A program made the translations under genes and the position numbers. DNA of 64,000 nucleotides from a virus: positions 102,639-166,638 of IMG/VR virus record IMGVR_UViG_3300048835_000830. One strand, written 5' to 3'. Under the pieces are notes generated by a model. It had not been told where the DNA came from and made no database searches. It saw nothing but the letters and a program-made list of their open reading frames with translations. The number at the start of each line of letters is the position of its first letter. Positions within the stretch are counted from its first letter, which is position 1. Below, piece by piece: positions 1,274-25,459 of this stretch.

Positions 1274-1288
1274 CACCGTCTCCTTTAA

Positions 1289-4377: not shown

Positions 4378-4432
4378 GATGTCTCCTATTTTTTAGGAAT
4401 TTAGCATGAGCCGGTCTTTTCGTTAAGTCTTT

Positions 4433-4867: not shown

Positions 4868-4878
4868 AGTGTCTTCCT

Positions 4879-5289: not shown

Positions 5290-5326
5290 GCAATCGAAGT
5301 CCTCAAAGTTAAGGTTTGCCGAACGC

Positions 5327-6656: not shown

Positions 6657-6695
6657 TTTCTATCCTTATTGTGAATGATGGTGCTGGAGGTTTTT

Positions 6696-6962: not shown

Positions 6963-7283
6963 CCCAAAGGCTATCCAGAATACGACGAGAGCAAACACCA
7001 GCGACATCAAAATTGCAACCCCAATCGGAAGAAGAGCATCGCTTTTACTTGCGCTTAATGTTTGCGTCATAAAGCGTGCTTCCGTGGGTTTTTCGCTGTG
7101 TCCGCACTTTGGGCAAAGATGGTCATACTTTGGTGAATGGAATTCGAGACGGCGGGAATACTGGCATGCAGGGCATGTCCTAAGACGAAGCAGCATAAGT
7201 GCCTCCTCGAAATTTCTGCCGCGATGGGCGTTCGCCCCTTTTTCGGAATTCGCCAGAATTTGATTAGCCTCTCCCGAAATCAT
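6948..7283 (-). CDS. Zinc-ribbon protein with C-terminal membrane anchor
   Basis: A 111-residue protein. Residues 37-60 carry two CxxC pairs (CPAC and CPKCG, 20 residues apart) forming a zinc ribbon. Residues 84-107 (LLPIGVAILMSLVFALVVFWIAF) form one transmembrane helix at the C-terminus, so the ribbon probably faces the cytoplasm. AAGGAGT precedes the ATG at 7283. It lies 17 bp downstream of the SbcC-like ATPase and is likely in its operon. Confidence 0.7.
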   Translation of the reverse strand: MISGEANQILANSEKGANAHRGRNFEEALMLLRLRTCPACQYSRRLEFHSPKYDHLCPKCGHSEKPTEARFMTQTLSASKSDALLPIGVAILMSLVFALVVFWIAFGLPAR

Positions 7284-7300
7284 GCCGCTTACTCCTTCCT

Positions 7301-8968: not shown

Positions 8969-9016
8969 GGTCGAAAACTCCTTTTGCGCACACTTGGCGC
9001 ATTCTGAAATGGATTT

Positions 9017-9481
9017 GTCACCGCTCCGCGGAGCGGAACTTGTCCGTCGATCGTTTTTTGAAAGGGCTGGTGATTTGGGTGGTGCCGTATTTTTCAGTTA
9101 TTTCGTTACATTACATCCGTTGTCACCGTGTCACCAGTGAAATTTTTGCGATTTTTGCGCAACGGTGACGCTTTTTTTGAAACCATATCGGAGGCTTACC
9201 CGATTCTGTCACCGCGTCACCGCGAAAACCCCCTTTTTAAACCCCCTATGTGAAAAACATCGCTAATTGTTTTTACTCAGAGCGCCAATCCGGGTGTGCA
9301 TGAAATCGGGAAAGAGACGCGAAAAAAATCCTCTATGGGAAAAAGAATGACTCTTGCGGTGACACGGTGACATTTATATGTTTTGATTTATATGGGGCTT
9401 TAATCATTGGCTTTTATGCGGATTTTTTTTGTCACCGATTCTGTCACCGGAGAGGCTTTCTGTCACCGATCCAGCGGTGAC
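9017..9481. repeat. GTCACC word cluster (possible origin or operator region)
   Basis: A 680-bp gene-free stretch (8969-9651) holds twelve copies of GTCACC within 465 bp. Direct copies start at 9017, 9122, 9130, 9208, 9216, 9431, 9443 and 9462; inverted copies (GGTGAC) start at 9164, 9358, 9366 and 9476. Three pairs are spaced exactly 8 bp apart (9122/9130, 9208/9216, 9358/9366). AT-rich tracts lie between them. A 16-bp perfect palindrome covers 9021-9036. Clustered words on both strands next to AT-rich DNA are typical of iteron origins or multi-site operators. No gene for a known initiator sits beside it; a role in replication or in control of the SbcC-like operon is inferred. Confidence 0.65.
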
Positions 9482-9520
9482 ATTTACGTTTTTTTTATTT
9501 TGTTAGTGCCAAAGTGGCCG

Positions 9521-9552
9521 AAAAACCCAGGCCCCGGAGCCCGAAGCCTGGG
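9521..9552 (-). terminator. Intrinsic terminator of the 10.65-9.65 kb operon
   Basis: Read leftward, a perfect 7-bp stem (CCCAGGC / GCCTGGG, 9546-9552 with 9526-9532) is followed by five T. It lies 100 bp after the stop of the 9652 gene and before the GTCACC cluster, so it isolates the two leftward transcription units. Confidence 0.75.
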
Positions 9553-9651
9553 TAAAATCAAGGTTTATGCAAGGGCCTTCGTTCCTAACGACAAAAGTTT
9601 GGAATCGGCATAAACCGGGATGTCGGTACTCTGCTTGATTTGACGCAGTTG

Positions 9652-10110
9652 TCAGGAGGGCGAGAGGCGGTCCCTGAGGCGCTTTTGGATCTCGACGAGA
9701 TATTCCGCAGCGCGGGCGGCATCCTCGCGGCTCATGCCCGTTTTCACGGTCAGGCGGACCCTTTCGAGGTCGGCCTCGGTCATGAGATGGGGGTAGTAGC
9801 AGCGGAGCCTGGCCGCCGTCTCCTCCTTGTGGACAAGGGCGGCCATTATTACGCTTTTGGAAAGATCGCGGTAACTCTCGGCCGCGCCTATGGGGCCAAG
9901 GCCAACGCCATCGCTCAGAGATTCGAGAAGGGCGATCTCAAGATAACGAAGCCGCGTCACGGCACGAATGAGCCTATGAAGCTCGGGCTCGTTTTCAGGC
10001 CCCGTGAAAAGACCATCCATCAGATCTGTCAGACAGCGGGGATTGCCGGCGACCTCGCGCATGATCTGAAGAAAGTCGAGTGCAAACGCGTCCGAATCGA
10101 ATTTTTCCAT
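9652..10110 (-). CDS. Hypothetical helical protein
   Basis: A 152-residue, mostly helical soluble protein with a pair of heptad-rich helices at the C-terminus (AARAAEYLVEIQKRLRDRL). GGGAGG precedes the ATG at 10110, and a TATAAG promoter-like element lies 35 nt further upstream. A terminator follows, so this gene may form its own transcript. No family recognised. Confidence 0.6.
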   Translation of the reverse strand: MEKFDSDAFALDFLQIMREVAGNPRCLTDLMDGLFTGPENEPELHRLIRAVTRLRYLEIALLESLSDGVGLGPIGAAESYRDLSKSVIMAALVHKEETAARLRCYYPHLMTEADLERVRLTVKTGMSREDAARAAEYLVEIQKRLRDRLSPS

Positions 10111-10144
10111 GGGCCTCCCGATCCTTTAAAAATGTCACAAAACT

Positions 10145-10152
10145 CTTATACC
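10145..10152 (-). promoter_or_regulatory. Promoter-like element GGTATAAG (copy 1)
   Basis: On the minus strand GGTATAAG followed by AGTTTTGT, with the start codon of the downstream gene 35 nt away. The same 8-mer occurs at 16422, 17383 and 32584, each time in the gap before a leftward gene. TATAAG would serve as a -10 box. No clear -35 is seen, so an extended -10 or a phage sigma factor may be used. Confidence 0.5.
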
Positions 10153-10160
10153 GAAAACTT

Positions 10161-10652
10161 CTAGCGCCGTGGGCGCTGAAGCCTCGCAAGCACGAGATAG
10201 ACGATCGTGCAGAGAACGGCCGCTGCAAGACCGATGATGAGAAGGGTCAGGGCGAAATCATCCTGACGGCGCCTTGCGTCGAGCTGCCCCTGAACGATGC
10301 TGATTTGCTTTGAGAGAGCCTCGATTCCCCCGTCAGGGCTGCTTTTGCAGGTGACGGAAAGCTTTTGTGAGATGGCCTCAGTCAGAATTTCTGTGAACTC
10401 TGTGGCCACAGGCCCTGTGCCGAAAAGGGAGTCTCCTCCGCGGTCGATCTCCATCGCCTTTACGTAGCCGGCTGGCGTTTTGATAAGGACAAGAACGTCG
10501 GGCCTTCCCTCGGGGATTTTTACCGTGTCGGCCACAGGCTCAGAACCATCCATGACCCAGGACGCCTTGGAGGCCGGTTTTTGCGGGAGAGTCGCCTGCG
10601 CGATCGGTTTTTGCGGAAGAGGGGGAACTTTGACATTGATCTCTGTGGCCAC
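10161..10652 (-). CDS. Membrane-anchored protein, possibly lysis related
   Basis: A 163-residue protein starting at GTG (10652) after AAAGGA. The first 35 residues are Pro/Lys-rich and contain a repeated PLPQKPIAQATLPQKPA motif. Residues 130-157 form one C-terminal transmembrane helix (FALTLLIIGLAAAVLCTIVYLVL), followed by a basic tail. It lies directly downstream of the CHAP endolysin gene (28-bp gap), so a part in lysis (spanin, holin or anti-holin) is possible by position only. Confidence 0.55.
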   Translation of the reverse strand: MATEINVKVPPLPQKPIAQATLPQKPASKASWVMDGSEPVADTVKIPEGRPDVLVLIKTPAGYVKAMEIDRGGDSLFGTGPVATEFTEILTEAISQKLSVTCKSSPDGGIEALSKQISIVQGQLDARRRQDDFALTLLIIGLAAAVLCTIVYLVLARLQRPRR

Positions 10653-10680
10653 CGGGTATCCTTTGGCGGCGGCCGCGAGG

Positions 10681-11346
10681 TCAGCTCTGCTTTACCTCCG
10701 GGCGCTCGACCGAGTCGGGGTTGAATGGGGCAATAAAGCCGACGAGGCGCATTTTGCCAATCTGTTTTGTTGACCTTATCTTACGATAAACCCCATCGCC
10801 CTCACGCTCAATCGTATTGTCGTCAGGCGAGGTGTTCCCCTCAATAGTTTCGATTGTAAACTCGTCGATCACCCGACTCACAATCCCGATGTGCCCGCTC
10901 GCTGTCCCCTCGTAGTTCCAGATGACGACAAAGCCCGCCTTGGGTGAACGGTGGCGATGGACACCTGGAGTTCTATTCCAGATCGTCATGCAGTGCTCGC
11001 TGACGGCCATGACGAGGGTCGCTCCAAAGCGCATCTGGACTTCTTTCACACAAAACTGGACGAAACAGGCACACCACGGCTCGCCGAGCGCCTTGCCATC
11101 GACCGCTTTTTGGAACCGCACGACCTCGGGCCCTTTGTTGTTGCCTCCCGCCTCGTGCACGCCGATCCACTTTTCCGCCTCGCGTATGAGTTCACGGCGG
11201 AAGTCCACGAGGATGAAAAGAGGGGGAGCCGCCCTCGCCTTTTCAGGAGCATCGGAAACGGGAGGGGGCTCAGGCATTCTTTCCGGGTCCCTCCGACCAA
11301 AGGAACGCGTCGCCATCCAATCGATCAGCTTTTTGACCCAGTTCAT
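10681..11346 (-). CDS. CHAP-domain endolysin / peptidoglycan hydrolase
   Basis: A 221-residue protein. Residues 55-205 match the CHAP / NlpC-like amidase-peptidase pattern found in phage lysins: a helix with IREAEKWIGVHE, catalytic Cys within PWCACFVQFC (near residue 94), catalytic His within GHIGIVSRV (near residue 152), and the acidic/Asn partner in IEGNTS. The N-terminal 40 residues are Pro-rich and contain a short amphipathic start. No signal peptide, so it would need a holin. It would cleave cell-wall peptides or amide bonds at the end of infection. GAGGGGG precedes the ATG at 11346. Confidence 0.8.
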   Translation of the reverse strand: MNWVKKLIDWMATRSFGRRDPERMPEPPPVSDAPEKARAAPPLFILVDFRRELIREAEKWIGVHEAGGNNKGPEVVRFQKAVDGKALGEPWCACFVQFCVKEVQMRFGATLVMAVSEHCMTIWNRTPGVHRHRSPKAGFVVIWNYEGTASGHIGIVSRVIDEFTIETIEGNTSPDDNTIEREGDGVYRKIRSTKQIGKMRLVGFIAPFNPDSVERPEVKQS

Positions 11347-11363
11347 CGAGCCCCCTCGAAATC

Positions 11364-11786
11364 CTATGACAGTTGCGATACTGTCGGCACGTTTGAGGCA
11401 AGAGTAAAGGTTTCCAATGCGTAAAAATAAGAAAGAACTGCATCGACAAGCACCTGAACCCCATCCGTCTTCCGAACAAAGGCTTTTGGTTTAAGAGCCA
11501 TCAGCGGAAGAAGGTTTCTGGCCGGCGAAGCGCTAAAAATAAAAAGGGGAAGCTCTGTTGTTTCAGAGACTTCCCGGGCGTAGTCCGAAAGCGGCCAACC
11601 CTGGACTTCGCCGTCAAGGATGACGAAGTCAAAGGCCGGACTCTGTATCAGACTCATATACATGGCGCGATTTGCAGCGACCTGCAGAAAAGCACTGCTT
11701 CTGAAACCTCTTTGAACAAGTCTTGCGGTCAGTTCATCGTCCTCGACGTAAAGCCCCCGAAGCCTTCTCATGTCAGGCCCTTCCAT
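11364..11786 (-). CDS. Orphan receiver-domain (response-regulator-like) protein
   Basis: A 140-residue protein with the shape of a CheY-like receiver and no output domain. Visible marks: acidic pair in LYVEDDE (residues 12-18), phospho-acceptor Asp in FVILDGE (near residue 58), Ser in IFSAS, and the conserved Lys in FVRK after a KPKA loop. The usual Pro after the Lys is missing. No histidine kinase is seen nearby, so it may listen to a host kinase or act by unphosphorylated binding. An ATG at 11771 is an alternative start. It lies 17 bp upstream of the endolysin gene. Confidence 0.65.
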   Translation of the reverse strand: MEGPDMRRLRGLYVEDDELTARLVQRGFRSSAFLQVAANRAMYMSLIQSPAFDFVILDGEVQGWPLSDYAREVSETTELPLFIFSASPARNLLPLMALKPKAFVRKTDGVQVLVDAVLSYFYALETFTLASNVPTVSQLS

Positions 11787-11896
11787 TGTGAAGTTGCGGT
11801 TAAGCGACTTTGAACTTTTCGGAAGGAAAAATCCAGCACGTTCATACTTGTAGGTATTTTACCGCGTTTGGGGGATTTTGACCAAAACCTTTTCCA

Positions 11897-12316
11897 TCAG
11901 GATTTTCGCGTGCTTCCAAGAGTTGCGAGTTTTCGGTTCACAGGTTCGCCGAGTGCCGAGGTGATAATGATTAGAGCCTCCTTGCCTTCGATCTCCTCCG
12001 GGGTAAGGTCGATCTGAAACTCCTCGGCGATCCACTTTGCACAACTGTCCAGGAACTCTGCGTAGCTGCCGCACTTAAGAACCGTGCCCGGCCGCGCCGT
12101 TACAAAAGCTGTGGAAAGATTCGCACTGAGGACGACGTAGTCCACCGACGACCGCGCCCCGATCCCGCGCCACATTTTTTTTGTGTAGGCCTTTATGTTG
12201 GGAATCTGCTTTGTCAGAAGCATTTTGGTTTTGGGGTCATTTGCGAATAGGGAGGGGATCAGTTCGAGAGTTTCGGTAAGCAAAAGATCAATCGAGATGT
12301 CTATAGGCTCCTGCAT
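11897..12316 (-). CDS. Hypothetical protein
   Basis: The frame opens at 12370, but AGGAGA fits the ATG at 12316, giving 139 residues. Helical N-terminal half (IDLLLTETLELIPSLFANDPKTKMLL) and a mixed C-terminal half. It overlaps the previous gene by 29 bp, indicating coupling. No family recognised. Confidence 0.55.
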   Translation of the reverse strand: MQEPIDISIDLLLTETLELIPSLFANDPKTKMLLTKQIPNIKAYTKKMWRGIGARSSVDYVVLSANLSTAFVTARPGTVLKCGSYAEFLDSCAKWIAEEFQIDLTPEEIEGKEALIIITSALGEPVNRKLATLGSTRKS

Positions 12317-12572
12317 GATGTCTCCTGATAGTGTTCTGACAATCCTTAATTTCTCTGAAAAGAGCCTCAAACAGCTCTTCGGGAATCGTCACGATATCAC
12401 GCCCTACGGTAAGGCGCAGCCTTTTTCTACCCTGACAGAGGTCGCGTAAAAGCCCGGCGGGCGGTATTTCCAGGTGTCTGGAAAGAAGGTCCCCTGTCGG
12501 CGTTTCAATAGAGATGTCAAATGTCCATTCACATAGATCAACCGCGAGCGTTGAATGATACTGTCCCGTCAT
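12288..12572 (-). CDS. Hypothetical protein
   Basis: A 94-residue protein with an N-terminal beta hairpin (TLAVDLCEWTFDISIETPTG) and a helical C-terminus (EELFEALFREIKDCQNTIRRHH). AAGGAGA lies just upstream of the GTG/ATG pair at 12575/12572. Overlaps both neighbours. Function unknown. Confidence 0.5.
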   Translation of the reverse strand: MTGQYHSTLAVDLCEWTFDISIETPTGDLLSRHLEIPPAGLLRDLCQGRKRLRLTVGRDIVTIPEELFEALFREIKDCQNTIRRHHAGAYRHLD

Positions 12573-12915
12573 CACTGATCTCCTTCGTTTCAGGTGTCTT
12601 CATGTAGCTTCTGATCGAAAGGGCAAGACTCAGGGGCCAAAGAACCCAGCCCGAGACTGCAAAAAGGGAGAGGACGAAGCCCCTGGCGTGCGGAAAGCAG
12701 TAGATGAGAGCCTTCTCCATGGAGCGCGAGGCTTTCTCCATACCCCTCACCCGTCTCTGAAAAGCGGCTCGCGCTCTTTCTTCCGATTTACCGCGCGCCG
12801 AAAGAATTTCGTCAGCCAGAAATTGCTCCAGCATTCGCCGGAAAGTATCCTGCATCATCGAAAGAATCGAGTAGGTGAGAAGAAGGACGAGGAAGTGTGC
12901 GGTTTCGGTACTCAT
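12538..12915 (-). CDS. Two-helix membrane protein, possible holin
   Basis: A 125-residue protein with an N-terminal hydrophobic segment (HFLVLLLTYSILSMM, residues 7-21), a basic middle (EERARAAFQRRVRGMEKA) and a C-terminal hydrophobic segment (GFVLSLFAVSGWVLWPLSLAL, residues 79-99). Size, two membrane helices and a charged end suit a class II holin, and it lies about 1 kb upstream of the endolysin in the same leftward run. Sequence gives no family match, so this is by architecture only. A long hairpin occupies its leader. Confidence 0.45.
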   Translation of the reverse strand: MSTETAHFLVLLLTYSILSMMQDTFRRMLEQFLADEILSARGKSEERARAAFQRRVRGMEKASRSMEKALIYCFPHARGFVLSLFAVSGWVLWPLSLALSIRSYMKTPETKEISDDGTVSFNARG

Positions 12916-12934
12916 GTTTGTCTCCAGGGGAATG

Positions 12935-12983
12935 GCTCAACCTACAAGGAACAGGATCGACTTCTGCCCCTTGTTGGTTGAGC
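12935..12983. other. Long imperfect hairpin in the leader of the 12915 gene
   Basis: GCTCAACC (12935-12942) pairs perfectly with GGTTGAGC (12976-12983); inside it CAAGG (12945-12949) pairs with CCTTG (12969-12973), separated by a 2x2 internal loop. It starts 20 bp before the start codon at 12915. No T-run follows on either strand, so it is more likely a leader structure than a terminator. The remaining gap 12984-13222 shows nothing else I can support. Confidence 0.5.
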
Positions 12984-13222
12984 GCTGAAAGGTTTACCAG
13001 GAGAATCAAAGGCCTGCGTGAAGCCTTATGCTTTTTGCACATCAGGGCGAAGACTTTGACCCTGCGGAAGAGCTTGAAACCATGGACTCTTTGGGAAGCG
13101 CCTTTAGATTGTGTGCAAAAAAGAAATCTGGCGAGAAGGTGCTTTGGAGAGGAAAAGATCGCTCGCCGCGGTGAGATGCCGCCCTCGAGTCGTTCACGGT
13201 GAACACCGAAGGCAGCCGTTTC

Positions 13223-14797
13223 TTACTTGCGAACGCAAAAGTAGTTGGCCGTGTCGCTGGCCGTTTTTAGAGCGCCGACGCTAGCCCCCATGATAGCGAT
13301 GTAATAGCTCATCGAGTATGTGCTCGACGTCCACGAGCCATACCATGCGACAACGCTGTTTTCGGCGGCACCGTGGGTTGAGAGCGTGATAGCCTCATCG
13401 GAGGAAGGAAGACGCCAATCATCGAAACCGCCGTAGACGAGGTTCAGACAACCGTTGACGGCTGTGTTGCGGTTACCGCTACCCATTTGCTTGGACACGT
13501 ACAGTCCCGAGATGCGGTCCTTCCACATGCAGTTGGAGGGGTCCCCGGCGCAGGTCGATGCTGTCGAAGACGAGAGCGAGGTCAGGTCCTGCCAGATTTC
13601 ATTTTGAGCACAGCTTTCGCCAACGGGAACGGTCCCGCTGTCGTGAGTCCGGCAGTGAGCCTTGAGTTTACCCGAGACACCATTGACAGTCTTGCCGAAG
13701 CGAAGATCCCACGGGTCGATCGTGATTTCACTTGCGGGTTCAAGAGTACCCGAGACATTGAAGAGGGTCACATCGGATTTAATGTTTTCGGCTGTCAAGG
13801 CCGAGTTACCTGTCTGGGTATGGCGGGCGCCGGTTGAATCAAAGTATTCAAATTGGGCGTCCGATTTGATCTTCAGGTTGAACGTGGCCGCATCGAGGTC
13901 GGCAGTTGCGGTGGCCGAGGCCAGAGGGGCCGAAGCCGAAGGGTAGGTACCGGTCACACCGGCGACGGCCACACCATTTTTGAGGTTTGCAGCCACAAGG
14001 TTTGTAAGGTCAGCGGCCTTGTAGGTCTCGCCCGTAACGCAACCCGTTTGACCGTTGCTAGTACAGTCCGAGTGCGACTCAACGACGAGCGAACCGGAAA
14101 CGCCAGCAATCGTCACACCCGACTTTACGTTGGCAGCCGAGAGGTTTGCAATATCAGCGGCTTTGTAGGTGGATGTGGCGACGCAGCCCGACTGACCGTT
14201 TGCGCTGCAGTCGACATGCGACTCCACGGCAAGCGATCCGGTGATGCCAGCGATCGTCACACCCGACTTTACGTTGGCAGCTGAAAGGTTACTGAGGTTG
14301 GCAGCTTTGAAGCTGGCGTTCGTTACGCAGCCTTCCTCGCCGTTGGCCGAGCAGGAGCTGTAGGAAGCGCCAGCATAGTTTCCTGTGACACCGGCAATCG
14401 TCACACCCGATTTTACGTTTCCGGCTGTGAGGTTGCTAAGGTCAGGGGCGGCGGGGATGACAAGCGTACCCGTGGCGATCGTGCCGTCGCAGAGCATCAG
14501 CTGAACACCGGTTTTGACTTCGGCCAGGTTGGGGTCAACGCAGTCCGGGTCTGTGAGCTTCAAAGCCTTGGCAGGAGCAGTCTCCTCGACTGCGGGGGTC
14601 GCCGTCTTTTGAGCTTCGATAGGGGCTTCGACTTTGCTTTCAGCCTTCGCCTCTACTTTGGCTTCATCAGTTGGTTTTGCGACCGGTGCTGGAACGCTGG
14701 TGGGAAGGGTTACGGGCGCCACACCGGAGCCGGAATCGGCACCGCAGGCGGCAAGGGTACTGTAGAGAACGAGCGAATACAAAAGTTGCGATTTCAT
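13223..14797 (-). CDS. Repeat-bearing lipoprotein with C-terminal DUF1566 (Lcl-like) domain
   Basis: A 524-residue protein with a lipoprotein signal (hydrophobic LLYSLVLYSTLAAC, lipobox LAAC at residues 15-18) followed by a Ser/Pro/Glu linker. Residues 105-285 hold at least five near-copies of a motif ending SGVTIAGVTG, separated by Cys pairs (CSANGEEGC and similar). The last 150 residues match DUF1566: Cys-rich with GGFDDWRLPSS and a WTSSTYS segment. It would be exported and anchored in the outer envelope of a host. Such genes in phages are often lysogenic- or superinfection-type surface changers, but that is inference. It follows a terminator, so it may rely on read-through or a weak promoter. 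Confidence 0.7.
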   Translation of the reverse strand: MKSQLLYSLVLYSTLAACGADSGSGVAPVTLPTSVPAPVAKPTDEAKVEAKAESKVEAPIEAQKTATPAVEETAPAKALKLTDPDCVDPNLAEVKTGVQLMLCDGTIATGTLVIPAAPDLSNLTAGNVKSGVTIAGVTGNYAGASYSSCSANGEEGCVTNASFKAANLSNLSAANVKSGVTIAGITGSLAVESHVDCSANGQSGCVATSTYKAADIANLSAANVKSGVTIAGVSGSLVVESHSDCTSNGQTGCVTGETYKAADLTNLVAANLKNGVAVAGVTGTYPSASAPLASATATADLDAATFNLKIKSDAQFEYFDSTGARHTQTGNSALTAENIKSDVTLFNVSGTLEPASEITIDPWDLRFGKTVNGVSGKLKAHCRTHDSGTVPVGESCAQNEIWQDLTSLSSSTASTCAGDPSNCMWKDRISGLYVSKQMGSGNRNTAVNGCLNLVYGGFDDWRLPSSDEAITLSTHGAAENSVVAWYGSWTSSTYSMSYYIAIMGASVGALKTASDTANYFCVRK

Positions 14798-14819
14798 TTT
14801 GGACTCCTAAGTTTTTTGA

Positions 14820-14846
14820 AATAAAAGGCCAGCCCGAAGGCCGGCC
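14820..14846 (-). terminator. Intrinsic terminator after the 15.6-14.9 kb lipoprotein gene
   Basis: Leftward, GGCCGGCC-TTCG-GGCTGGCC forms an 8-bp stem with one G-U pair and a TTCG tetraloop, followed by TTTTATTT. It lies 31 bp after the stop at 14878. Confidence 0.8.
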
Positions 14847-14877
14847 TCAAGTGAATCCTACACCTACCAAAGAGAGA

Positions 14878-15612
14878 TCAGTCGAGCACGTTGCCGTACT
14901 CGTCGACCTTAACGGGCTTGTAAATGTAAGCGGTTCCTGGCTGAACGACTTCGATTCTGACAGCGCCTGAGCGGGCTTTGTTTTCAGCCTGGATCTCGAA
15001 AGCATCACCAACTGAGTTCTCACCCTTCCGGGTTTCAACCCATTTGCCGTTGCTTGTGAAATAGCCTTCAGCCATCACACGTTCACTGGGAAGACCTGCC
15101 TTGTTCCGGGCTATGCCCAGCTTGAACATGCATTCCTCGTGTTGGCGTTTGACGACCTTTAGCATCTTGCGGAGGCTCACGTCGTAGCTCCTGGCGGCCT
15201 TAAGACGGTCCACGTAATAGCTTTTGCGGACAATTTTAAGATCGCCATCTTCAGCGAGGCCAAACTCCTCTTTGACCTTTTCAAAGGGGCGCATGTCGTA
15301 GTCGATTTCCGCTGGCAGTTCACCGCGGCCACCAAGGCGGGGGTCGGCGAGGTCCGTCATGCAGCGCTTGATCTCAGCAGCTTCGCTTGCAATCTTTTCT
15401 TCAAAATAGGCGTTCACGTTTTCAGCGATACGCAGCTCGTCCTGGGCACGAACTTCTTCCTGAAGAATGGCTTCGTTTTCGCCGTTGAGTCCAAGCTTTT
15501 GGCCGTTCACATTCCCTTTGAGATCGAGTGCGGTCGAGATGGTTTTGACTTTGTAGTCATTGGTAGCACATGCGTTAAGAGCCAAAGCGGCAAGGATCAT
15601 AATGGTTTTCAT
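14878..15612 (-). CDS. Putative lipoprotein
   Basis: A 244-residue protein with a short lipoprotein signal (MKTIMILAALALNAC, lipobox LNAC). The mature part is helical and charged, with a long coiled-coil-like stretch (residues 45-80) and a C-terminal beta-rich region containing VEVVQPGTAYIYKPV. AGGAGA precedes the ATG at 15612 in a leader almost identical to that of the small gene just upstream. A terminator follows. Function unknown; export and anchoring to the envelope are predicted. Confidence 0.65.
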   Translation of the reverse strand: MKTIMILAALALNACATNDYKVKTISTALDLKGNVNGQKLGLNGENEAILQEEVRAQDELRIAENVNAYFEEKIASEAAEIKRCMTDLADPRLGGRGELPAEIDYDMRPFEKVKEEFGLAEDGDLKIVRKSYYVDRLKAARSYDVSLRKMLKVVKRQHEECMFKLGIARNKAGLPSERVMAEGYFTSNGKWVETRKGENSVGDAFEIQAENKARSGAVRIEVVQPGTAYIYKPVKVDEYGNVLD

Positions 15613-15636
15613 GTTGCGTTCTCCTGGTTGTTATTT

Positions 15637-15762
15637 TTAGTAGCGATTCAGATTTTCCCACACCGTTTTGCGGCGGGCTTTGGAAGGATCGAAAACTGCA
15701 TGCAGAGCTTGACCGATTGATTTTATTTTGTAGGAAAGAGACTTAAGTATAATGGGTTTCAT
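15637..15762 (-). CDS. 41-residue small protein
   Basis: A short frame, MKPIILKSLSYK...WENLNRY, read from the ATG at 15762 to TAA at 15637-15639. It has a strong AGGAGA box at the usual spacing. The 20 bp around its start (AGGAGAATGCAACATGAAA) are nearly identical to the start of the lipoprotein 25 bp downstream, so the two leaders look duplicated. The protein is basic with one amphipathic helix. Function unknown. Confidence 0.55.
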   Translation of the reverse strand: MKPIILKSLSYKIKSIGQALHAVFDPSKARRKTVWENLNRY

Positions 15763-15794
15763 GTTGCATTCTCCTGGTAGTTTGTTTGTCAAAT

Positions 15795-16076
15795 TCAAAT
15801 ATCTCGGCCTTTTATTTCCAGGACCAGTTCGCGTAGAGCGGTTCTCATTAGTTTGATGGCGACCATTTTCAACTCAATTTCTTTCCGTCTCTCAGCTTCC
15901 CGAGCCAGTAGTCTTTTCTGCGATTTTGTTGCGTATCGCTGGCTCCATTTCCGAAAGGATGCCAAGTGGATGCCGTTAAGTTTGCAGTACCGTGTACCGG
16001 TAATGCCAGATTTCCTGGCATCGTCTATAACTTTCTTCCAGTAGTTCCGGGTTTCTTTGTGAGTCAGACCTTTCAT
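15795..16076 (-). CDS. IS66 TnpA-like helix-turn-helix protein
   Basis: A 93-residue protein. Residues 10-48 (YWKKVIDDARKSGITGTRYCKLNGIHLASFRKW) follow the pattern of the helix-turn-helix found at the start of IS66-type TnpA and related transposon proteins (W...SG-hydrophobic-T...YC...GI...F..W). The rest is a basic helix. No transposase partner or terminal repeats are seen, so it is probably a domesticated DNA-binding protein. AAGGAG precedes the ATG; the start overlaps the previous stop by 4 bp. Confidence 0.6.
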   Translation of the reverse strand: MKGLTHKETRNYWKKVIDDARKSGITGTRYCKLNGIHLASFRKWSQRYATKSQKRLLAREAERRKEIELKMVAIKLMRTALRELVLEIKGRDI

Positions 16077-16336
16077 TTTCTGCTCCTTGAAACGCGAAGC
16101 TCGTCAGGAACGAAGAGAGCGCTGACATAGCTCTCCCAGTTGAACCAGTGGTTCAGAGCTGGAATCCAAAGCCACTGGAGCACGCTGGTTACCGCGAGTG
16201 CGTACCAGAAGCCGAAGGGAAGGATAAAGGCAAATGCAGCAATCTGAGTTCCGATGCAAAGAAGAAACATCGACCAGTAGAAGCGACTCTGAGACTTAAT
16301 AATAGCTTTGAATATCTCTTTGACTAGACTAAGCAT
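16073..16336 (-). CDS. Small two-helix membrane protein
   Basis: The frame opens at 16375; CAGGAGT fits the ATG at 16336, giving 87 residues. Two hydrophobic segments (SMFLLCIGTQIAAFAFILPF and FWYALAVTSVLQWLWIPAL) with a basic N-terminus and a charged tail. It could be an inner-membrane effector or holin-like protein; no family match. A promoter-like element and a terminator-like hairpin precede it. Confidence 0.55.
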   Translation of the reverse strand: MLSLVKEIFKAIIKSQSRFYWSMFLLCIGTQIAAFAFILPFGFWYALAVTSVLQWLWIPALNHWFNWESYVSALFVPDELRVSRSRK

Positions 16337-16373
16337 AACGACTCCTGATGTATAAATTTTTCGATTCCCAAAC

Positions 16374-17333: not shown

Positions 17334-17371
17334 AATTAAAAAGAGGACTCAGCTCAAAGCTAAGTCCTCTT
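17334..17371 (-). terminator. Terminator-like hairpin between a promoter-like element and the 17301 gene
   Basis: Leftward, AAGAGGACT and its perfect complement AGTCCTCTT enclose an inner AGCT pair, followed by TTTTTAATTTT. It lies downstream of GGTATAAG (17383) and 33 bp before the start at 17301. It could end the array transcript or attenuate the 17301 operon. Confidence 0.7.
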
Positions 17372-17429: not shown

Positions 17430-18831
17430 CGCGCCTTCCGGCACGCATCAATTTATGATTAAATCCTTCTACCGCTCTCAGAGCCTTCTGCGAGGCCGAC
17501 CTAATGCCGCTTTCTGCTATCGCTCTTTCGAGCCTTCTTGAAACCCTATCCGTAATCTTGCCGCTTATCGCTCCTTTGAGCTTTCCGATTTCCCGCCTTC
17601 TAAGGCTTGTTTCGTAACGCTCTTTCGAGCACAGCCGACCATGTAAATGAATTTATAGTTCCTCTATCGCTCCTTCGAGCTTTAATCAAATCCCTGCTCC
17701 TGCACTTGTCTCCTAACGCTCCAAAGCGAGCAGGTCATGCCCATCGGTCTAAGGAGGCCTACCTTCCATCTAACGCTCCACGGAGCAAGGCTGGCCCACA
17801 GTGAGGTTGAATGTCTGCTATCGCTCCAAGGAGCTCACTGCATAGCTAACTTTTAGCTGTCCTTTTCTATCGCTCATCGAGCATTACGGGACTTCGTTTC
17901 AGCTGACCTTTATCGCTCTTTCGAGCCGTAGTGGTGCGATATCGTCTATTTTTCTAACGTTCCAAAGAACACTCTGCCGCTCGCACGGTCACCGTCTAAC
18001 GCTTCTGAAGCCTTTGTTCGCATCGTGAAATGCACCGTCTATCGCTCCTTCGAGCCAATCAAGCACGCAAACTTATCCTGCCTATCGCTCGGTAGATGTG
18101 GAGCTTTCATTCCACCCGCCCACCAGCCCTGCCTATCGCTCCCAAGGGAGCCCTCCACAGAAACACAGTCTTTCCGTCTATCGCTCTTTCGAGCCGCTGT
18201 GAACATTAAGGTCCTTTCAAATACCGCTCGCGTAAGAGCTGCCCTCTATGGGGATTTCCGTGGACTTCCTCCTACCGCTCTTGCGAGCGCTGGTATAGCG
18301 CTCCACGAGCAAAGGCGTTGCTTGGCGTGCCTTCTATCCCTTTAACGCTCCCGAAGGAGCTTTGCAGGCCGCGTTTCGCGGATCCTTTCCTTCTATCGCG
18401 CCTTTCACGATGTTCCCCGCTCTATCTCCTATCGCGCACCGTGTGCACCAAATACTGGCTTATTTGCCTAACGCTCTCACGAGCAGGGAGTCACAGCTTC
18501 GATACTCTTCTAGCGCTCTCACGAGCTGAAATATATCTGGTTTCTCGACTATTCTCTCCTAGCGCTCCCTATTGAGCGGACGGGCGTCTGTCGCATCATT
18601 TTCTCTTTTCTAACGCTCTTTACCGAGCGGCGTGCCCTTGCCCAAGCTTCTACTCTTTTCTAACGCTCTTTCGAGCCTGATTTTTTATTTCCTACCTTCA
18701 CCTACCGCGCACGCCTTGTGCGCGACCTGACGCCCCCTTTTTTGGGGCCGCGAGAGCCGATGTAAGCGACGCATAACGCTCCGAGGAGCAAAGCTCTCAA
18801 TGCACAGGATTATTAGCTCATTCTACCGCTC
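17430..18831 (-). CRISPR. CRISPR-like array of ultra-short covarying hairpin repeats
   Basis: No open gene fits this 1.4 kb. Plus-strand hairpin starts: 17474, 17522, 17570, 17619, 17669, 17718, 17775, 17823, 17872, 17915, 17959, 18001, 18044, 18087, 18138, 18183, 18226, 18277, 18300, 18347, about 18395 (decayed), 18434, 18473, 18515, 18564, 18615, 18665, 18707, 18778; a last tag without a full hairpin lies at 18820-18831, and a 6-bp GGAA-loop hairpin at 17430-17446 may close the array. Spacing is 36-57 bp with outliers of 23 and 71, mean near 47. On the minus strand each unit reads GCTC-loop-GAGC then GNTAGRNR then a unique spacer (22-37 nt, one about 4). Stems covary: GTTC/GAAC at 17959, GCTTC/GAAGC at 18001, GCGCAC/GTGCGC at 18707, GCTCCC/GGGAGC at 18138. 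Eight loops are GNRA on the minus strand only. The tag resembles the type I-F crRNA handle. The array follows the cas-like genes on the same strand. Confidence 0.8.
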
Positions 18832-19929
18832 CTCCTCCTCGCTGCCCGCTTCTGTCTTTACCCTTGGAAAATCGACGCCCGCGGCTTTTAGAGAAGCCTC
18901 GCTTAAAACAGGGAAACTCGCATCGAAATCGCCCTTTGGCAAGCTGTATTCGAGAGACACAAAACCTGTGCCCCACTTGCCGTAAAAGCAGCTCATGGGG
19001 CCACTTCGTACACGCGCCTCCTCTTCTTCGGTCAGATTTTCAATGAGAAGGTCGAAATCCGTGGTCGCAAAAGTCATGGGTGCGCCGCGAACATAAAGGA
19101 CACGTTCCGGCGGGATATCCACCCACTGGCCGGTGTGCTGCGGATAAGGAATGATCGAGAACTTCGTGGATTTCACATCGTTCAACCGGTCGCGCCATGT
19201 GGGGTCGCCGCAGAGGCGGTGAATCTCCCCGAGCAGCTCAAAGTGGGTCTTTGATACCGGAATCTTTCGTCCGGAAAAGCCATTGTGGATATACCCTGCG
19301 GCCTGCCCCAGGTATTCGAGGAACTTGCTCTCTATTTTGGAAGTCGCATTAAAACGGTCGAGCTTTGGTACGGCGGCTTCGAGCTCGTCCTTGTAGCGAA
19401 GCGCCAGAAGATCGACTTCTTTCAACTCCTTGCCTTCGCTCTTTTTCTTCAGTGCCACATGAAATCGCCTCTGTCTCACCGCGGACACCGAGAGGGCATC
19501 CTGGAGGGCCGCATTCACGTCGCCAAGGCTCTCGGCGCCCGTGACCCTCGTCAGTGCAGGGCGGAGGTGCGCGATGAGCGTATTCGCATATTGCCAGCCG
19601 AAATCGTCAATCCTTATTTTGCTCGGAAGGACCTTCGACGAATACTGTCCGAAGACCGTGTGGCAAAAGGGCTCTCTTACAACGCGGCACTTCATCCGCG
19701 CGAGCATGGTCTCGCGCATGGGGTCATCGAAAAGGGGCGGCTCGGAGTGCTTGGCATGCACTCGCCTCACCTCACCAAGGATATAAGAGAGCATTCCCCG
19801 GCGCATCGACTCGCCGCAGAGGGGCAGAAACCTTTCCCCCTCACCCTCGCAAAGGTCCATGGCGCAGTAGCCGTTTGTGTCCGTTTTTATAATGAGCCCG
19901 CCGCTGCGCGCCCGAATGAGAAGGTGCAT
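18823..19929 (-). CDS. Cas5-like (or Cas8/large-subunit-like) protein of the array operon
   Basis: A 368-residue protein, third gene of a tight operon, starting 2 bp after the Cas7-like stop. I do not recognise it by sequence with certainty. It begins with a beta-strand start (HLLIRARSGGLIIKT), has a long basic helical middle (RQRRFHVALKKKSEGKELKEVDLLALRYKDELEAAV) and a C-terminal Gly-containing strand region (CFYGKWGTGFVSLEYSLP) like a RAMP fold. In type I-F2 (I-Fv) systems a Cas5 of similar size replaces the large subunit; size, order and context fit that. The last codons are four Glu, Arg and TAG, and the TAG lies inside the first repeat tag (GAGC-GGTAGAAT), so gene and array are physically joined. 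Alternatives: type IV Csf3-like, or an unrelated array partner. Confidence 0.5.
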   Translation of the reverse strand: MHLLIRARSGGLIIKTDTNGYCAMDLCEGEGERFLPLCGESMRRGMLSYILGEVRRVHAKHSEPPLFDDPMRETMLARMKCRVVREPFCHTVFGQYSSKVLPSKIRIDDFGWQYANTLIAHLRPALTRVTGAESLGDVNAALQDALSVSAVRQRRFHVALKKKSEGKELKEVDLLALRYKDELEAAVPKLDRFNATSKIESKFLEYLGQAAGYIHNGFSGRKIPVSKTHFELLGEIHRLCGDPTWRDRLNDVKSTKFSIIPYPQHTGQWVDIPPERVLYVRGAPMTFATTDFDLLIENLTEEEEARVRSGPMSCFYGKWGTGFVSLEYSLPKGDFDASFPVLSEASLKAAGVDFPRVKTEAGSEEEER

Positions 19930-19931
19930 GC

Positions 19932-20855
19932 TTACTCCGCGGCTTTGTAGGCTTTATAGAACGAGAGCGTATCGAGCGTTGCGATGAAGGTCCCAAAGTC
20001 CATCGACTTCGATTGGTTGCCATCGCTGAGCGTCACACGGATCGTCTCCGGAAGAAGCCTGAGGCTCGACCCGGCTTTGGCAATCTCTATTCTCTGAATG
20101 CGGTCAAAAAGATAGCCGAGCACGCGCCGTATCTGAAGGTCGTTGAGAAGAACCCCGTGCTGCGTGGCTTTTACGACGGCTGTTTTGTGGACGTACTTCC
20201 CAGGCGTTACGCGACCCTCCTCGCCGAGGCTTTCAAACATCCTGTTCATCTGCTCGATATAGGCAGTCTCGTCCTCCCGGCTTATAATGGCGTCGTCGCC
20301 GTAGTTGAGCGAGATAAAGCTCAGAGCGGAGAAATCGATTTTGGCTTCAAAATCCTGAAGACGCCTGCCGGCGTTGTCCTTGCTCCAAAAGCTCGTGTCG
20401 CTTACTTTTTCGCCTTTTTTATTCGTGAGGTTTGTCTCCTGCGGCTTTGAGCTGCGGCCAATGTCACTGAATGTGGCCCGATAAGCCCGCGCATCAAGCC
20501 CCTCAGTGGTCTTCCTTTGGCGCGTGTATTCCTTTCGCGTGTAGGCATCAAGAACGCAAAGAGGGCTCGTCCTTTTGCAGCCGCGCTCAGGCATCATGAG
20601 CCCTCGTACAATCCCTATCATGGAAGCCGCGATGGGCACCGCGTTGTCATACATCTCGCGGGTTGCCGGCTGACGCGGCATGAGGTCAGCGAAGATCGTC
20701 CGCCGAAGAAGGCGGCTCGACGTGAAGTCAAAGCCGAGGGCGTCCCTTTTTGCGAAGAGATGGTTTTTTTGCTTGGCCGTCGTCGAGCGGCCGTTCATGT
20801 TGACGATACCGATTACGTCGAGGTCGGCTTTCACTGTGATCGTTTTGATTTGCAT
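19932..20855 (-). CDS. Cas7-like backbone protein
   Basis: A 307-residue protein between the Cas6-like and Cas5-like genes. The start (IKTITVKADLDVIGIVNMNGRS) is the first strand and loop of a Cas7-type RRM, followed by a basic region with LLRRTIFADLMPRQPATR, which resembles the thumb and palm of I-F-type Cas7. The last third ends in a long amphipathic helix pair. No catalytic motif of Cas7 type III (no Asp in a target-cleaving loop) is apparent. The expected role is a filament of several copies along the spacer part of the guide RNA. GGGAAC precedes the ATG at 20855, 12 bp after the Cas6-like stop. The call rests on fold-like motifs plus gene order, not on a database match. Confidence 0.6.
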   Translation of the reverse strand: MQIKTITVKADLDVIGIVNMNGRSTTAKQKNHLFAKRDALGFDFTSSRLLRRTIFADLMPRQPATREMYDNAVPIAASMIGIVRGLMMPERGCKRTSPLCVLDAYTRKEYTRQRKTTEGLDARAYRATFSDIGRSSKPQETNLTNKKGEKVSDTSFWSKDNAGRRLQDFEAKIDFSALSFISLNYGDDAIISREDETAYIEQMNRMFESLGEEGRVTPGKYVHKTAVVKATQHGVLLNDLQIRRVLGYLFDRIQRIEIAKAGSSLRLLPETIRVTLSDGNQSKSMDFGTFIATLDTLSFYKAYKAAE

Positions 20856-20867: not shown

Positions 20868-21359
20868 TTATTTGAAATCTTTGATGATGATCAGACCAAA
20901 GCCGTACGAGCGGCGCCCGCCGACCCCGTTGAAATATGCGTTGTCGAATAGCTCCCGGTTGACAATATTGAATTGGCCGTAGATGCGGAAAGCCGTTCGG
21001 ATCGTGAACTTGTGGGTTTCAAGAAGGCCGAGGTTATAGATCTCTGAGTCTATAGGCTTGAGGCCGGCCTGCGCCGTGAACATGGCAAAGGCCTCGTGCG
21101 TCCGCCACTCCTTTCGGAAAATGCCTTGGCTCTTGCTATCAAAGACGACATTGCACGACAGCTCAACCTCAACAGTGCCCTCGGGGAGGCGCAGCATATC
21201 AAAGGTGGCGTCCGGGGTTACGAGCGGCGTCTCGGTTGTGGCAACGTAAACCCTGGTACCCTCGACGCTTACAGCAACCCGCTCTTTGAATGCCTTTCTT
21301 ATAATCGCATGCACATCGTTTAAATCTGGCGGCCTGCCAGTATCGTAGCAATAGAGCAA
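20868..21359 (-). CDS. Cas6-like RNA endonuclease
   Basis: A 163-residue protein with the hallmark Gly-rich loop of Cas6/RAMP proteins near the C-terminus: G-V-G-GRRSY-G-F-G, which fits GhGxxxxxGhG exactly with two Arg in the middle. His17, on the first predicted helix (NDVHAIIRKAF), is a good candidate for the catalytic residue of Cas6 enzymes. The length is short for Cas6 (usually 180-240), which may suit the very short hairpins of the neighbouring array. The start is a TTG at 21359 with GAGGGA upstream; no ATG fits. First gene of the array operon. Expected role: cutting the array transcript at the 3' base of each hairpin and leaving an 8-nt tag. Confidence 0.7.
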   Translation of the reverse strand: MLYCYDTGRPPDLNDVHAIIRKAFKERVAVSVEGTRVYVATTETPLVTPDATFDMLRLPEGTVEVELSCNVVFDSKSQGIFRKEWRTHEAFAMFTAQAGLKPIDSEIYNLGLLETHKFTIRTAFRIYGQFNIVNRELFDNAYFNGVGGRRSYGFGLIIIKDFK

Positions 21360-22466: not shown

Positions 22467-23663
22467 ATGTCCCGAGAGAAAGTCGCACAGTTTAGAGCCC
22501 GAATCAAGGACCCTCAGGTTAGAAAATCCGTGGATAACGCCATCAGCTATCGACGCGGCCGCGATGTCCGCGAAGAGGATATTTTGGCTTTTCTCCAGCG
22601 GGAGTATGGTGCGCATCTGCCAGCAGAAACCGGTAATTTTGATGGATCGTCAGCTCTCAAAGTGGAGCCTCTGAATTCAGATCCGGAGTCAGAATCCGAT
22701 ACTGACACGGAAAGTCCTGGCATACTGAACTCAGAGCCGCCTCCCCCTGAAAGGGAGATTACCGAGGCGGAAGTGGCTGCGATGATCGAGCAGATGCAGT
22801 CCATCAGAGTCAGCCACCTGCACCATATCGGAGAGGGTGTTGTGATCGAAATGCCGCCGCAGAAAAAACGTGCTGAGGCAGAACCTGAACTTCAGAAGGC
22901 TGCTGAACCCCTGAAGGACAAGGATTCTGAGTCACCAGCCGCCGACGCGCCGATGCCGAAGAAAAAGTCAGTTCTGAATTCAGTGCGCCGAGTGAAAAGG
23001 GTGAAACTGAACTCAGAAAGGTCGGAGGAAAAGGAAAAAACGGCTGGGACGAGCCCCATGCGTTTGGTGCCCCAGCCGTCGCCGACCAAAACCGTTTTCA
23101 GCACTCTCGTGCTTCTGACCCTGATTGGCTTTATGTCCTATTATCTCATAGCCGCCACCGAGGCGCTCTATGGAACAGGCATCGCCACGCTTTTAGTGCT
23201 GATTCCTCTGGCCTTTGTCTTTTTTGTCAAAATCCCGGTTGTGCGCTACCTGGCGCTGGCCCTCTTCCTCGGGGTGGACCTATTGTCGGTCGGGGCCCTC
23301 CATAAGATCGAAACCGCAGGGATCAGTGTTTCAACGCTCGACGGCAACGCTGAATACCAGAGACTGAAAATTCAGTACGCCAAGGGAGAGCTGGAGCGCG
23401 ATGGGATCAACCTCAGAACGCACCCGACACTCCGCGATCAGAAAGCCGAAGAGCTAAAAAAAATCTCTGCTCGAATGACAGAGATTGAAGGCGGGAGTCG
23501 GCAGACTGTGGAGGCCACCGCCGAGAAGTCGCGGGCTGACGTGACCCTTGGTGTCAGGGCCCTTCTTCTCGTTGCGGCAGCCGTTTTTGCTCACGCGCTC
23601 CTCCACTATACGATCAGCATCGACTTCGACAAGTGGGTGAGAAAGGCCTTTGGGAGAGGCTAG
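22467..23663 (+). CDS. Multi-pass membrane protein with disordered N-terminal half
   Basis: A 398-residue protein with an AAGGAGG box before the ATG. Residues 1-55 form a basic helical domain; residues 60-205 are acidic and low complexity, then Lys/Arg-rich. Residues 210-280 hold three membrane helices (TLVLLTLIGFMSYYLIA, TLLVLIPLAFVFFV, YLALALFLGVDLLSVGAL); a soluble coiled-coil loop follows, and a fourth helix (ALLLVAAAVFAHALL) near residue 375. The acidic region contains four LNS motifs encoded by CTGAAYTCAG palindromes. No family recognised. It is the only rightward gene between 7 and 32.6 kb, and it converges with the next gene. Confidence 0.6.
   Translation: MSREKVAQFRARIKDPQVRKSVDNAISYRRGRDVREEDILAFLQREYGAHLPAETGNFDGSSALKVEPLNSDPESESDTDTESPGILNSEPPPPEREITEAEVAAMIEQMQSIRVSHLHHIGEGVVIEMPPQKKRAEAEPELQKAAEPLKDKDSESPAADAPMPKKKSVLNSVRRVKRVKLNSERSEEKEKTAGTSPMRLVPQPSPTKTVFSTLVLLTLIGFMSYYLIAATEALYGTGIATLLVLIPLAFVFFVKIPVVRYLALALFLGVDLLSVGALHKIETAGISVSTLDGNAEYQRLKIQYAKGELERDGINLRTHPTLRDQKAEELKKISARMTEIEGGSRQTVEATAEKSRADVTLGVRALLLVAAAVFAHALLHYTISIDFDKWVRKAFGRG
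22671..23016. repeat. Four CTGAAYTCAG palindromes inside a gene
   Basis: Copies at 22671-22680, 22725-22734, 22974-22983 and 23007-23016, alternating AT and AC at the centre. All lie in the low-complexity part of the membrane-protein gene and in the same reading frame. Confidence 0.5.
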
Positions 23664-23938
23664 CTCAGCATGGAGCGCTCGATCCGTGCGAGGCGTTCGA
23701 GCGCTTTTTCGCTGAACGGGTGGCCACTTTCAGCAATACACGACCGCAACTCCTGCATGCGCTGGCGGCATCGGTCTTTTTCTACGACGTGGCTGTAGGT
23801 CAGCCCGAGCAGGTCGGATCGGAATGTGCCGTCGAGCTCCATGAGCGCAAAAATCTTTTCGTGGGCCTTGGTTGGGAAGTATTCAGGATGACGGAAATTT
23901 GTTAGGGCGCGGTTTACGTAATAATCTGTGCTGTGCAT
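23660..23938 (-). CDS. Small protein, paralogue of the 25.4 kb gene
   Basis: A 92-residue helical protein. It shares with the 25217-25459 product a pattern: FxHPEYF/FHPDCF, then EKIFALMELDGTFRSDLLGLT/EKIFAILHLAGGYQWGLLGIT, then a His, then charged helices with C-terminal HP and LERLARI/LEKFREI. The two are clear paralogues. GGAG precedes the ATG at 23938. Function unknown. Confidence 0.6.
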   Translation of the reverse strand: MHSTDYYVNRALTNFRHPEYFPTKAHEKIFALMELDGTFRSDLLGLTYSHVVEKDRCRQRMQELRSCIAESGHPFSEKALERLARIERSMLS

Positions 23939-24073: not shown

Positions 24074-24460
24074 GGGCCTGTAATGGTTTCGACGGGAGGC
24101 GAAGAGTGCCGGTGCATGCCGGGCGTGTCTTGGGGCCCGATAACAACCGAGGCAAAACCTAAATGACACCGATAATGTCATCCGCGTAGAGTTCGGCCGC
24201 AAGGCTGAAAAGGTCGCGCTGGCCGCCTAATCGCAGCCAGGGAGCGTGCTGGCCCGTGCCGTTATCCGACCAGCCCCGTCGCCGTCAGCGGGTCATCTGA
24301 GGGCAAAAGCGGCCGCCAGGAGCCGTAGCCAGATCCTGGCTGGTGGAGCTGCACCCTAACCGGTGCACCCTTCCTCGCCCCGGAGTTGACCCGGGGACAA
24401 GCATGTAGAGCTGTCATTGCCTTTGTCTTTCGGACGCGGGTTCAACTCCCGCCAGGTCCA
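24074..24460 (+). ncRNA. ssrA: tmRNA (transfer-messenger RNA)
   Basis: A 387-nt one-piece tmRNA. The 5' end GGGCCTG (24074-24080) pairs over 7 bp with CAGGTCC (24453-24459), followed by the discriminator A. TTCGACGGG near the 5' end and GGACGCGGGTTCAACTCCCGCC near the 3' end are canonical tmRNA blocks. CCA is not encoded. The tag frame ends in GCG CTG GCC GCC TAA (ALAA, stop at 24228-24230); upstream in frame are NDTDNVIRVEFGRKAEKV, so the tag is unusually long unless the resume codon lies inside. It tags products of stalled ribosomes for proteolysis and frees the ribosome; carried on a phage it would support late translation. Confidence 0.9.
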
Positions 24461-24465
24461 CTTAC

Positions 24466-25216: not shown

Positions 25217-25459
25217 TCACGCTGCACCCGTGATCTCACGGAATTTCTCCAGCGCTTCGTCCGCCCTGGGATGGCAGCTCCTCTCGATGAGTCGGCGCAC
25301 GCGTTCAAATTCCGCTTCCCTCTTCTCTTTGTCAAGAAAATGCAGCTGCGTAATCCCGAGAAGCCCCCACTGATATCCGCCGGCAAGGTGCAAAATGGCA
25401 AAGATCTTTTCGGCCGCCTCGTCTTTGAAGCAGTCCGGATGAAAAAACGTATCGCTCAT
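25217..25459 (-). CDS. Small protein, paralogue of the 23.9 kb gene
   Basis: An 80-residue helical protein with the pattern FHPDCF...EKIFAILHLAGG...LLGITQLHFLDKEKR...HPRADEALEKFREI, matching the 23660-23938 product in order and spacing. AAGGAGA precedes the ATG at 25459. Function unknown. Confidence 0.6.
   Translation of the reverse strand: MSDTFFHPDCFKDEAAEKIFAILHLAGGYQWGLLGITQLHFLDKEKREAEFERVRRLIERSCHPRADEALEKFREITGAA

Follow-up and report, generated by a model that had tools for sequence, protein, structure and literature searches.

What defines the repeats of an array whose repeats differ from one another, and what would a phage use such an array for? These questions are raised by a locus in IMG/VR virus record IMGVR_UViG_3300048835_000830 (166,638 bases), of which positions 102639–166638 were analysed; this stretch of 64,000 nucleotides is referred to as the window, and coordinates are those of the window unless otherwise given. 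The record contains endolysin, terminase, baseplate, primase and DNA polymerase matches, and for this reason is assigned to a tailed phage. An earlier note, made from the DNA letters alone, had proposed that the repeats of this array are kept by structure and not by sequence, and that each RNA hairpin is under selection. The finding is real and is more interesting than first stated, and the locus is best read as a phage-borne, type I-F-derived CRISPR variant of a new sort; the headline of structure, not sequence, is too strong. The locus is laid out as follows.

20868–21359, minus strand: cas6, 163 aa, TTG start; Cas6/Cas6e similarity in the C-terminal part, with a glycine-rich loop (Pfam PF08798 2.4e-5, PADLOC Cas6 2.6e-6)
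19932–20855, minus strand: cas7, 307 aa, a divergent Cas7fv family member (NCBIfam Cas7fv 6.5e-20, tblastn to plasmid Cas7fv 6e-8, hhalign 2e-69)
18823–19929, minus strand: gene for a 368-aa protein, in the same operon as cas6 and cas7; no family match, Cas5 by position only
17431–18828, minus strand: array of hairpins and handles, with 29 units, one degenerate unit and an incomplete unit at either end
17341–17371, minus strand: terminator-like hairpin with a T-rich tail, past the array; recognised by eye and absent from the terminator scan listing

The spacings from cas6 to cas7 and from cas7 to the 368-aa gene are 12 and 2 nt, and the array lies directly downstream in the same orientation; together with the terminator-like hairpin these spacings fit one operon, and the promoter scan returned no consensus promoter on the minus strand. 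Two related phage records have the same neighbours (an SbcC-like gene, a lipoprotein and a primase), in which lipoprotein and primase lie about 3.4 and 2.0 kb apart, compared to 10.5 kb here, which places the module in a variable region. Cas7 was found in none of 13 phage records with a common portal protein, which is weak evidence of its absence from them, as most of these records are fragments.

The surrounding DNA has several further features. The lipoprotein-like protein (524 aa, 13223–14797, minus strand) has 144-bp internal repeats and a weak Lcl_C match; repeats of this type are frequent among Bdellovibrio-like bacteria, and may be a hint to the host. The primase is an AEP-TOTE primase-domain protein (E 1e-34; 26166–29546, minus strand) that also matches CRISPR-associated PrimPol models, and is probably the phage replication primase, since it is matched in 3 of 13 related records. 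The same variable region holds a tmRNA gene (24074–24463, plus strand; Rfam RF00023, 104.6 bits; ARAGORN tag DTDNVIRVEFGRKAEKVALAA), flanked by two small ORFs (23660–23938 and 25217–25459, minus strand) that by eye look like diverged copies of each other; a tmRNA search of 10 bacterial genomes matched only the tRNA-like end, in two of them. The IMG/VR contig 3300048592_001136 is 100% identical to this phage over 14,674 bases (1–14674 of the contig, 1672–16345 of one phage stretch), and the shared stretch ends short of the array.

Judged by its sequence, Cas7 belongs to the Cas7fv lineage, with 22–29% identity to Cas7fv proteins and an alignment over its length, its NCBIfam Cas7fv match of 71.7 bits being below the curated cut-off of 200. 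The nearest models to Cas6 are general Cas6, Cas6e and type IV Cas6, and Cas6f (Csy4) gave an hhalign E of 0.21 and no hmmsearch match. For the 368-aa protein there was no match in Pfam, PADLOC, NCBIfam or PHROGs; its candidacy as a Cas5 was not supported, with no Cas5fv similarity by hhalign, hmmsearch or profile scoring and a short C-terminal alignment to Cas5fv that was not above chance, while a pair of AlphaFold runs was uninformative.

The landmarks of the array, in the order in which they would be read on the minus strand, are these.

18820–18827, minus strand: first handle GGTAGAAT, with no proper stem; the TAG in this handle serves the 368-aa gene as stop codon
18778–18789, minus strand: first full hairpin unit, GCTC ctcg GAGC
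18732–18748, minus strand: degenerate hairpin GCCCC..GGGGC followed by GTCA, not GNTA, splitting a 54-nt gap
18707–18723, minus strand: variant hairpin GCGCAC/GTGCGC, 6 bp
18434–18448, minus strand: variant hairpin GTGCAC/GTGCGC, 6 bp including one G-U
18398–18408, minus strand: weakest unit, GTG/CGC, 3 bp
18347–18360, minus strand: hairpin with a fifth pair and a TTCG loop
18277–18310, minus strand: pair of hairpins just 11 nt apart, with no room for a guide
18138–18151, minus strand: hairpin with a fifth pair
18087–18104, minus strand: hairpin with a 10-nt loop
18001–18011, minus strand: variant hairpin GCTT/AAGC, 3-nt loop
17959–17970, minus strand: variant hairpin GTTC/GAAC
17474–17484, minus strand: last full unit, GCTC tga GAGC
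17431–17444, minus strand: terminal stem GTGCC ggaa GGCGC, handle lost

Each unit consists, on the minus strand, of an arm, a loop of 3–10 nt, a second arm and then GNTAGRNR. There are 29 hairpin units at 17474–18789, where the earlier note had placed them, although the array itself reaches further, to the terminal stem at one end and the first handle at the other, and 28 of the 29 pair over 4 bp or more in a single register. An identical GCTC/GAGC core is present in 24 units, as had been said of most; the other five have GCGC/GCGC, GTGC/GCGC, GCTT/AAGC, a GTTC/GAAC pair and, at 18398 only, GTGA/GCGC with 3 bp. Right after the stem comes the foot, C|GNTA, of which the C, G, T and A are invariant in all 29 units, followed mostly by GRNRR, the 8th base past the stem being a purine in 28 units and the 9th in 27. 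Loops of the GNRA type occur in eight units (GAAA in five, GTGA in two, GCAA in one), hairpin length varies from 11 to 18 nt and the handle-to-handle distance from 23 to 71 nt. Local folding forms 25 of the 29 hairpins, and the minimum-energy structure of a single 1.4-kb transcript contains eight. The swapped arms reported at 17959 and 18707 and the extra pairs at 18138 and 18347 are all present, whereas the GCTTC/GAAGC stem proposed at 18001 would leave a 1-nt loop, the actual unit having a 4-bp stem and a 3-nt loop, and the loop range of 2–10 nt is corrected to the 3–10 nt given above. As to structure and not sequence, the first half holds, pairing being kept in register in all units but one, and the second does not, with most cores identical and four foot positions invariant. 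A better description is that the short stem is kept through pairing and the foot through sequence, while the loop is free.

Whether the changed arms are compensatory was judged with stem registers picked by best pairing; at 18778 a 6-bp alternative outscored the 4-bp stem used. In a covariation test on 25 distinct rows of arms plus handle with 500 shuffles, the units being paralogs of one array and not independent, 99% of cells were paired versus a shuffled mean of 91.8%, a value as high being reached in none of the shuffles. Two-sided change was seen at three of the four pairs (reached in 1 of 500 shuffles) and in five cells in all (0 of 500), the covariation score was 0.223 compared to 0.085 in shuffles (0 of 500 as high), and further pair types were weakly above shuffles (21 of 500); the signal was lost when the partner position was slid. 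When 3' arms were permuted 100,000 times, the number of fully paired units, 28 of 29 in the array, averaged 21.8 and never exceeded 27, and the chance of finding a partner in a random upstream stretch was 0.035–0.118 for each arm other than GCTC/GAGC. Compensatory change is therefore real but is carried by about four units, and selection on the RNA hairpin of each unit is supported by the two-sided changes above shuffles together with the 28 stems in register. Divergent repeats could plausibly also guard the array from recombination.

A second kind of order is found in the lengths between stems. Gaps were measured from the last base of one stem to the first base of the next, and so comprise the 8-nt handle and the guide; in order, the 28 gaps are 54, 30, 36, 37, 37, 30, 24, 25, 37, 36, 11, 37, 31, 31, 33, 31, 32, 30, 32, 32, 37, 36, 43, 37, 38, 37, 36 and 37 nt. 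These fall into classes about 6 nt apart, namely 24–25 (one of each), 30–33 (three each of 30, 31 and 32, one of 33), 36–38 (four of 36, eight of 37, one of 38) and 43 (one), besides the single values 54 and 11, which are not normal guides. At period 6 the 28 gaps together have a circular concentration R of 0.68, and the 26 without 11 and 54 one of 0.72. The observed R was reached in none of 20,000 smooth-null draws (bandwidth 2–4 nt), nor in 20,000 Gaussian or uniform draws; with any period from 4 to 10 allowed, it was reached in at most 0.00025 of 4,000 draws. No such order is seen in handle-to-handle distances (R 0.29) or from stem start to stem start (0.26), and when hairpin lengths were permuted among units the observed R was reached at 2e-5. 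Since hairpin length varies while the gap is kept, and the other distances are unordered, it appears to be the RNA segment between hairpins that is constrained, and not a DNA period.

The order rests on one array in one metagenomic phage, and its 28 lengths are not independent, because neighbours share a length class (17 of 25 neighbouring gaps, compared to a permuted mean of 9.5, P 0.0006), which hints that local duplication is still occurring. Collapsing the gaps to 9 runs, in bins of 6, with by eye the same runs under a 2-nt gap rule, gave R 0.89 and P 5e-5, and the most conservative test, on the four class means alone, gave P 0.005. With the 54-nt gap divided by the degenerate hairpin (29) and the segments at either end included (38 and 29), R fell to 0.63 for 29 values.

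These two kinds of order bear on the simplest alternative, that this is an old type I-F array which has no acquisition genes and whose repeats are drifting. The absence of cas1 among the families listed would suit such decay, as would the weak stem at 18398, the degenerate hairpin at 18732–18748 and the double hairpin, but we regard it as distinctly unlikely, given that drift would break pairing and smear lengths. The two-sided changes exceed those in shuffles, the four foot positions are invariant throughout, the gaps keep to 6-nt classes, and the reading frames of cas6, cas7 and the 368-aa gene are open.

A step of six bases is the footprint of one Cas7. For type I-F1, the available text of PMC7296934 states that the first Cas7 covers 4 nt of the handle and 2 nt of the spacer and each other Cas7 6 nt, giving a spacer of 6N-4, and that complexes assemble down to a spacer of about 14 nt (N = 3); for the Shewanella I-Fv system, three Cas7fv on a 43-nt crRNA are cited in the corresponding portion of PMC6828817. 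With an 8-nt handle and the 6N-4 rule, the 26 gaps give N = 3 for two guides, 4 for ten, 5 for thirteen and 6 for one, with 2–5 nt left before the stem, and no guide is below N = 3 except for the 11-nt gap, where there is no room for one. The steps suggest guide complexes of several set sizes, in a system without the usual spacer-adding or DNA-cutting enzymes, and we infer that selection holds guide length to whole numbers of Cas7.

The proposed course of events is that the operon of cas6, cas7, the 368-aa gene and the array would be transcribed on the minus strand, that Cas6 would read the short hairpin and the invariant 3' foot bases and probably cut after the foot-side end of the stem, and that each crRNA would have an 8-nt 5' handle, GNUAGRNR, then a guide and a 3' hairpin. 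Cas7 would polymerise along the guide and, because it is proposed to take 6 nt per subunit, only guides whose length accommodates a whole number of subunits (3, 4, 5 or 6) would be retained. Without Cas3, the likeliest role of the resulting complexes would be to bind target DNA and thereby stop the host or rival elements from being transcribed or replicated. It seems fairly probable to us that the locus is a CRISPR effector module of type I-F descent carried by a phage, with neither adaptation nor nuclease genes, in which Cas6-processed guides of set length are loaded on Cas7 for DNA binding without cutting. Points against this reading are the single array with no sibling found, the failure of the spacers to match targets above chance, the lack of Cas5 similarity in the 368-aa protein, and the shortness of the stems, few of which form in the full-length transcript. 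A more far-reaching version, which we put forward as speculation with a low though appreciable probability, is a fixed, length-coded silencing program derived from type I-F Cascade, whose roughly 25 guides would have evolved by mutation and not acquisition, and whose guide lengths would set the Cas7 load (3 to 6) and the hold on the target, giving graded repression of several genes of the host or a rival without cutting.

Among the families listed (25 of 28 and 25 of 42 for PADLOC, 25 of 27 for Pfam), Cas1, Cas2, Cas3 and Cas8 were not found in 150 of the 157 ORFs of at least 110 aa, the other seven being cas6, cas7, the 368-aa gene, one short ORF and three very long ones, and the count covering ORFs within stretch borders and outside 100001–102638 of the record. 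One phage protein matches Cas4 models, and a SNF2/helicase and a PD-(D/E)XK protein are encoded elsewhere in the phage. The latter two would be in keeping with guides that rely on a nuclease from the host, or on one that escaped recognition, to destroy rival DNA as in ICP1; according to the available part of PMC11656645, phage I-F loci directed against rivals are known. We give this a small probability, as there is no Cas3 among the families listed and the guides have no target in public phages or plasmids. Silencing by binding would be the likeliest use, given that no nuclease turned up and that repression has been proposed, in the accessible text of PMC7162821, for phage CRISPR systems without interference genes; the array could also use a host nuclease or act as a decoy.

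Searches for spacer targets gave nothing above chance in the phage's own DNA (including a search with every sixth base left free), in relatives and other loci (1.58 Mb), in 395 genomes of one phylum, or in public phages and plasmids at E up to 10, where the best matches had E 1–5, those at E 1–2 consisting of an A-rich stretch plus stem located between genes in a phage and a plasmid. The idea that guides are copies of ribosome-binding sites plus start codons came from inspection by eye, had no match behind it and was dropped. This lack of targets would agree with an RNA decoy, in which the hairpins titrate host Cas6 or Cas7 and the segments between them are literal spacers coated by whole numbers of Cas7, since 6-nt steps need only Cas7 coating; phage RNA anti-CRISPRs that bind Cas6f or Cas7f are described in the available text of PMC11656645. 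We nevertheless see only a slight probability of a decoy here, as the phage encodes its own Cas6 and Cas7, and the known decoys, as that same text presents them, are solitary units or mini-arrays that mimic the host repeat and not thirty diverged ones. A TIGR-type stem-loop guide array, for which phage arrays with variable palindromic stems provide a parallel (in the part of PMC12045711 available), is extremely improbable, as the TGATGA box C is absent from both strands of the array, the neighbours are Cas6, Cas7 and a 368-aa protein without a Pfam match, with no Nop protein, and the gaps are of 24–43 nt and not two short spacers.

Sibling arrays were sought in several ways. Searches of IMG/VR with Cas7, with the 368-aa protein and with Cas6 alone found no siblings; one of two Cas7 alignment searches gave none and the other gave one canonical phage I-Fv locus. 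Searches with the polymerase and portal proteins, aimed at the host, found only distant phages. In the loci compared, scans for clusters of a stem plus CGNTA (or CANTA in one scan) revealed no other non-coding array. Two array-pattern searches were set aside, having returned only isolated chance matches and repeats within coding sequence. In two large phage contigs, collagen-like coding repeats resemble the hairpin+GNTAG units, and are a source of false positives in array searches.

Natural CRISPR spacers are of one length because the adaptation machinery, Cas1-Cas2, measures them. In the array described here no adaptation gene was seen and the lengths lie on a ladder of whole Cas7 numbers, so that the effector, and not the adaptation machine, would be the ruler, and the array would supply Cascades in a naturally occurring range of sizes. 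In the literature searched, which was largely without subscription journals and without bioRxiv preprints, we found no array in nature whose spacers differ by 6-nt steps. CRISPR finders based on identity would probably miss such arrays, because what defines the repeat is a hairpin with a four-base foot, not identity; a hairpin plus short foot, with gaps in 6-nt steps, provides a search recipe for others that have been overlooked.

The locus has the wide-sense features of Class 1 type I systems, i.e. an array of hairpin repeats with a constant 5' handle beside cas6 and cas7, and on this anatomy the array would work like a type I guide array. The closest comparison is with type I-Fv (I-F2; Cas7fv/Cas5fv/Cas6f), with which it shares a Cas7 of the Cas7fv family, the layout of 5' handle and 3' hairpin and a small effector set. 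In bacterial Cas7fv loci an array is detectable in 59 of 83, and repeat spacings are 60 (2368), 61 (51), 59 (6) or 62 (2) among 2427; the phage module, in contrast, has no detectable Cas5fv, Cas6f, Cas1 or Cas3 among the families listed, no identical repeats and no 60-nt period. It is not a member of type I-Fv, because Cas5fv, Cas6f, Cas1/Cas3 and a near-identical 28-nt repeat at about 60 nt were not found.

A phage-borne Cas7fv is also present in the canonical I-Fv locus of IMG/VR contig 3300021514_000002, which likewise has no cas1 in the stretch read, but that locus encodes an 861-aa Cas3-like protein, Cas5fv and Cas6f and has identical repeats at 60–61 nt. The contig is of 363 kb, with the locus at 7695–10873 and nine repeat copies, and its Cas7 reads RKRTSPL where others have CKRTSPL or CKRSSPL.

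TIGR-Tas systems, as described in the available text of PMC12045711, are alike in having variable palindromic stems between guides and in occurring in phages, and differ in that this array has no box C/D and no Nop protein but Cas6 and Cas7 instead. The CRISPR systems of huge phages are similarly phage-encoded, mostly without Cas1/2 and often without interference genes, with repression without cleavage proposed; their arrays, detected by MinCED and CRISPRDetect, are compact, with a median of six repeats, and structure-defined repeats or 6-nt steps do not feature in the accessible part of PMC7162821. The nearest likeness to the length ladder is the engineered length-variant type I-F1 Cascade, with spacers in 6-nt increments and proportional Cas7; those variants were hand-made, and natural I-F1 spacers, according to the available text of PMC7296934, are of 32 bp with a few of 31, 33 and 56.
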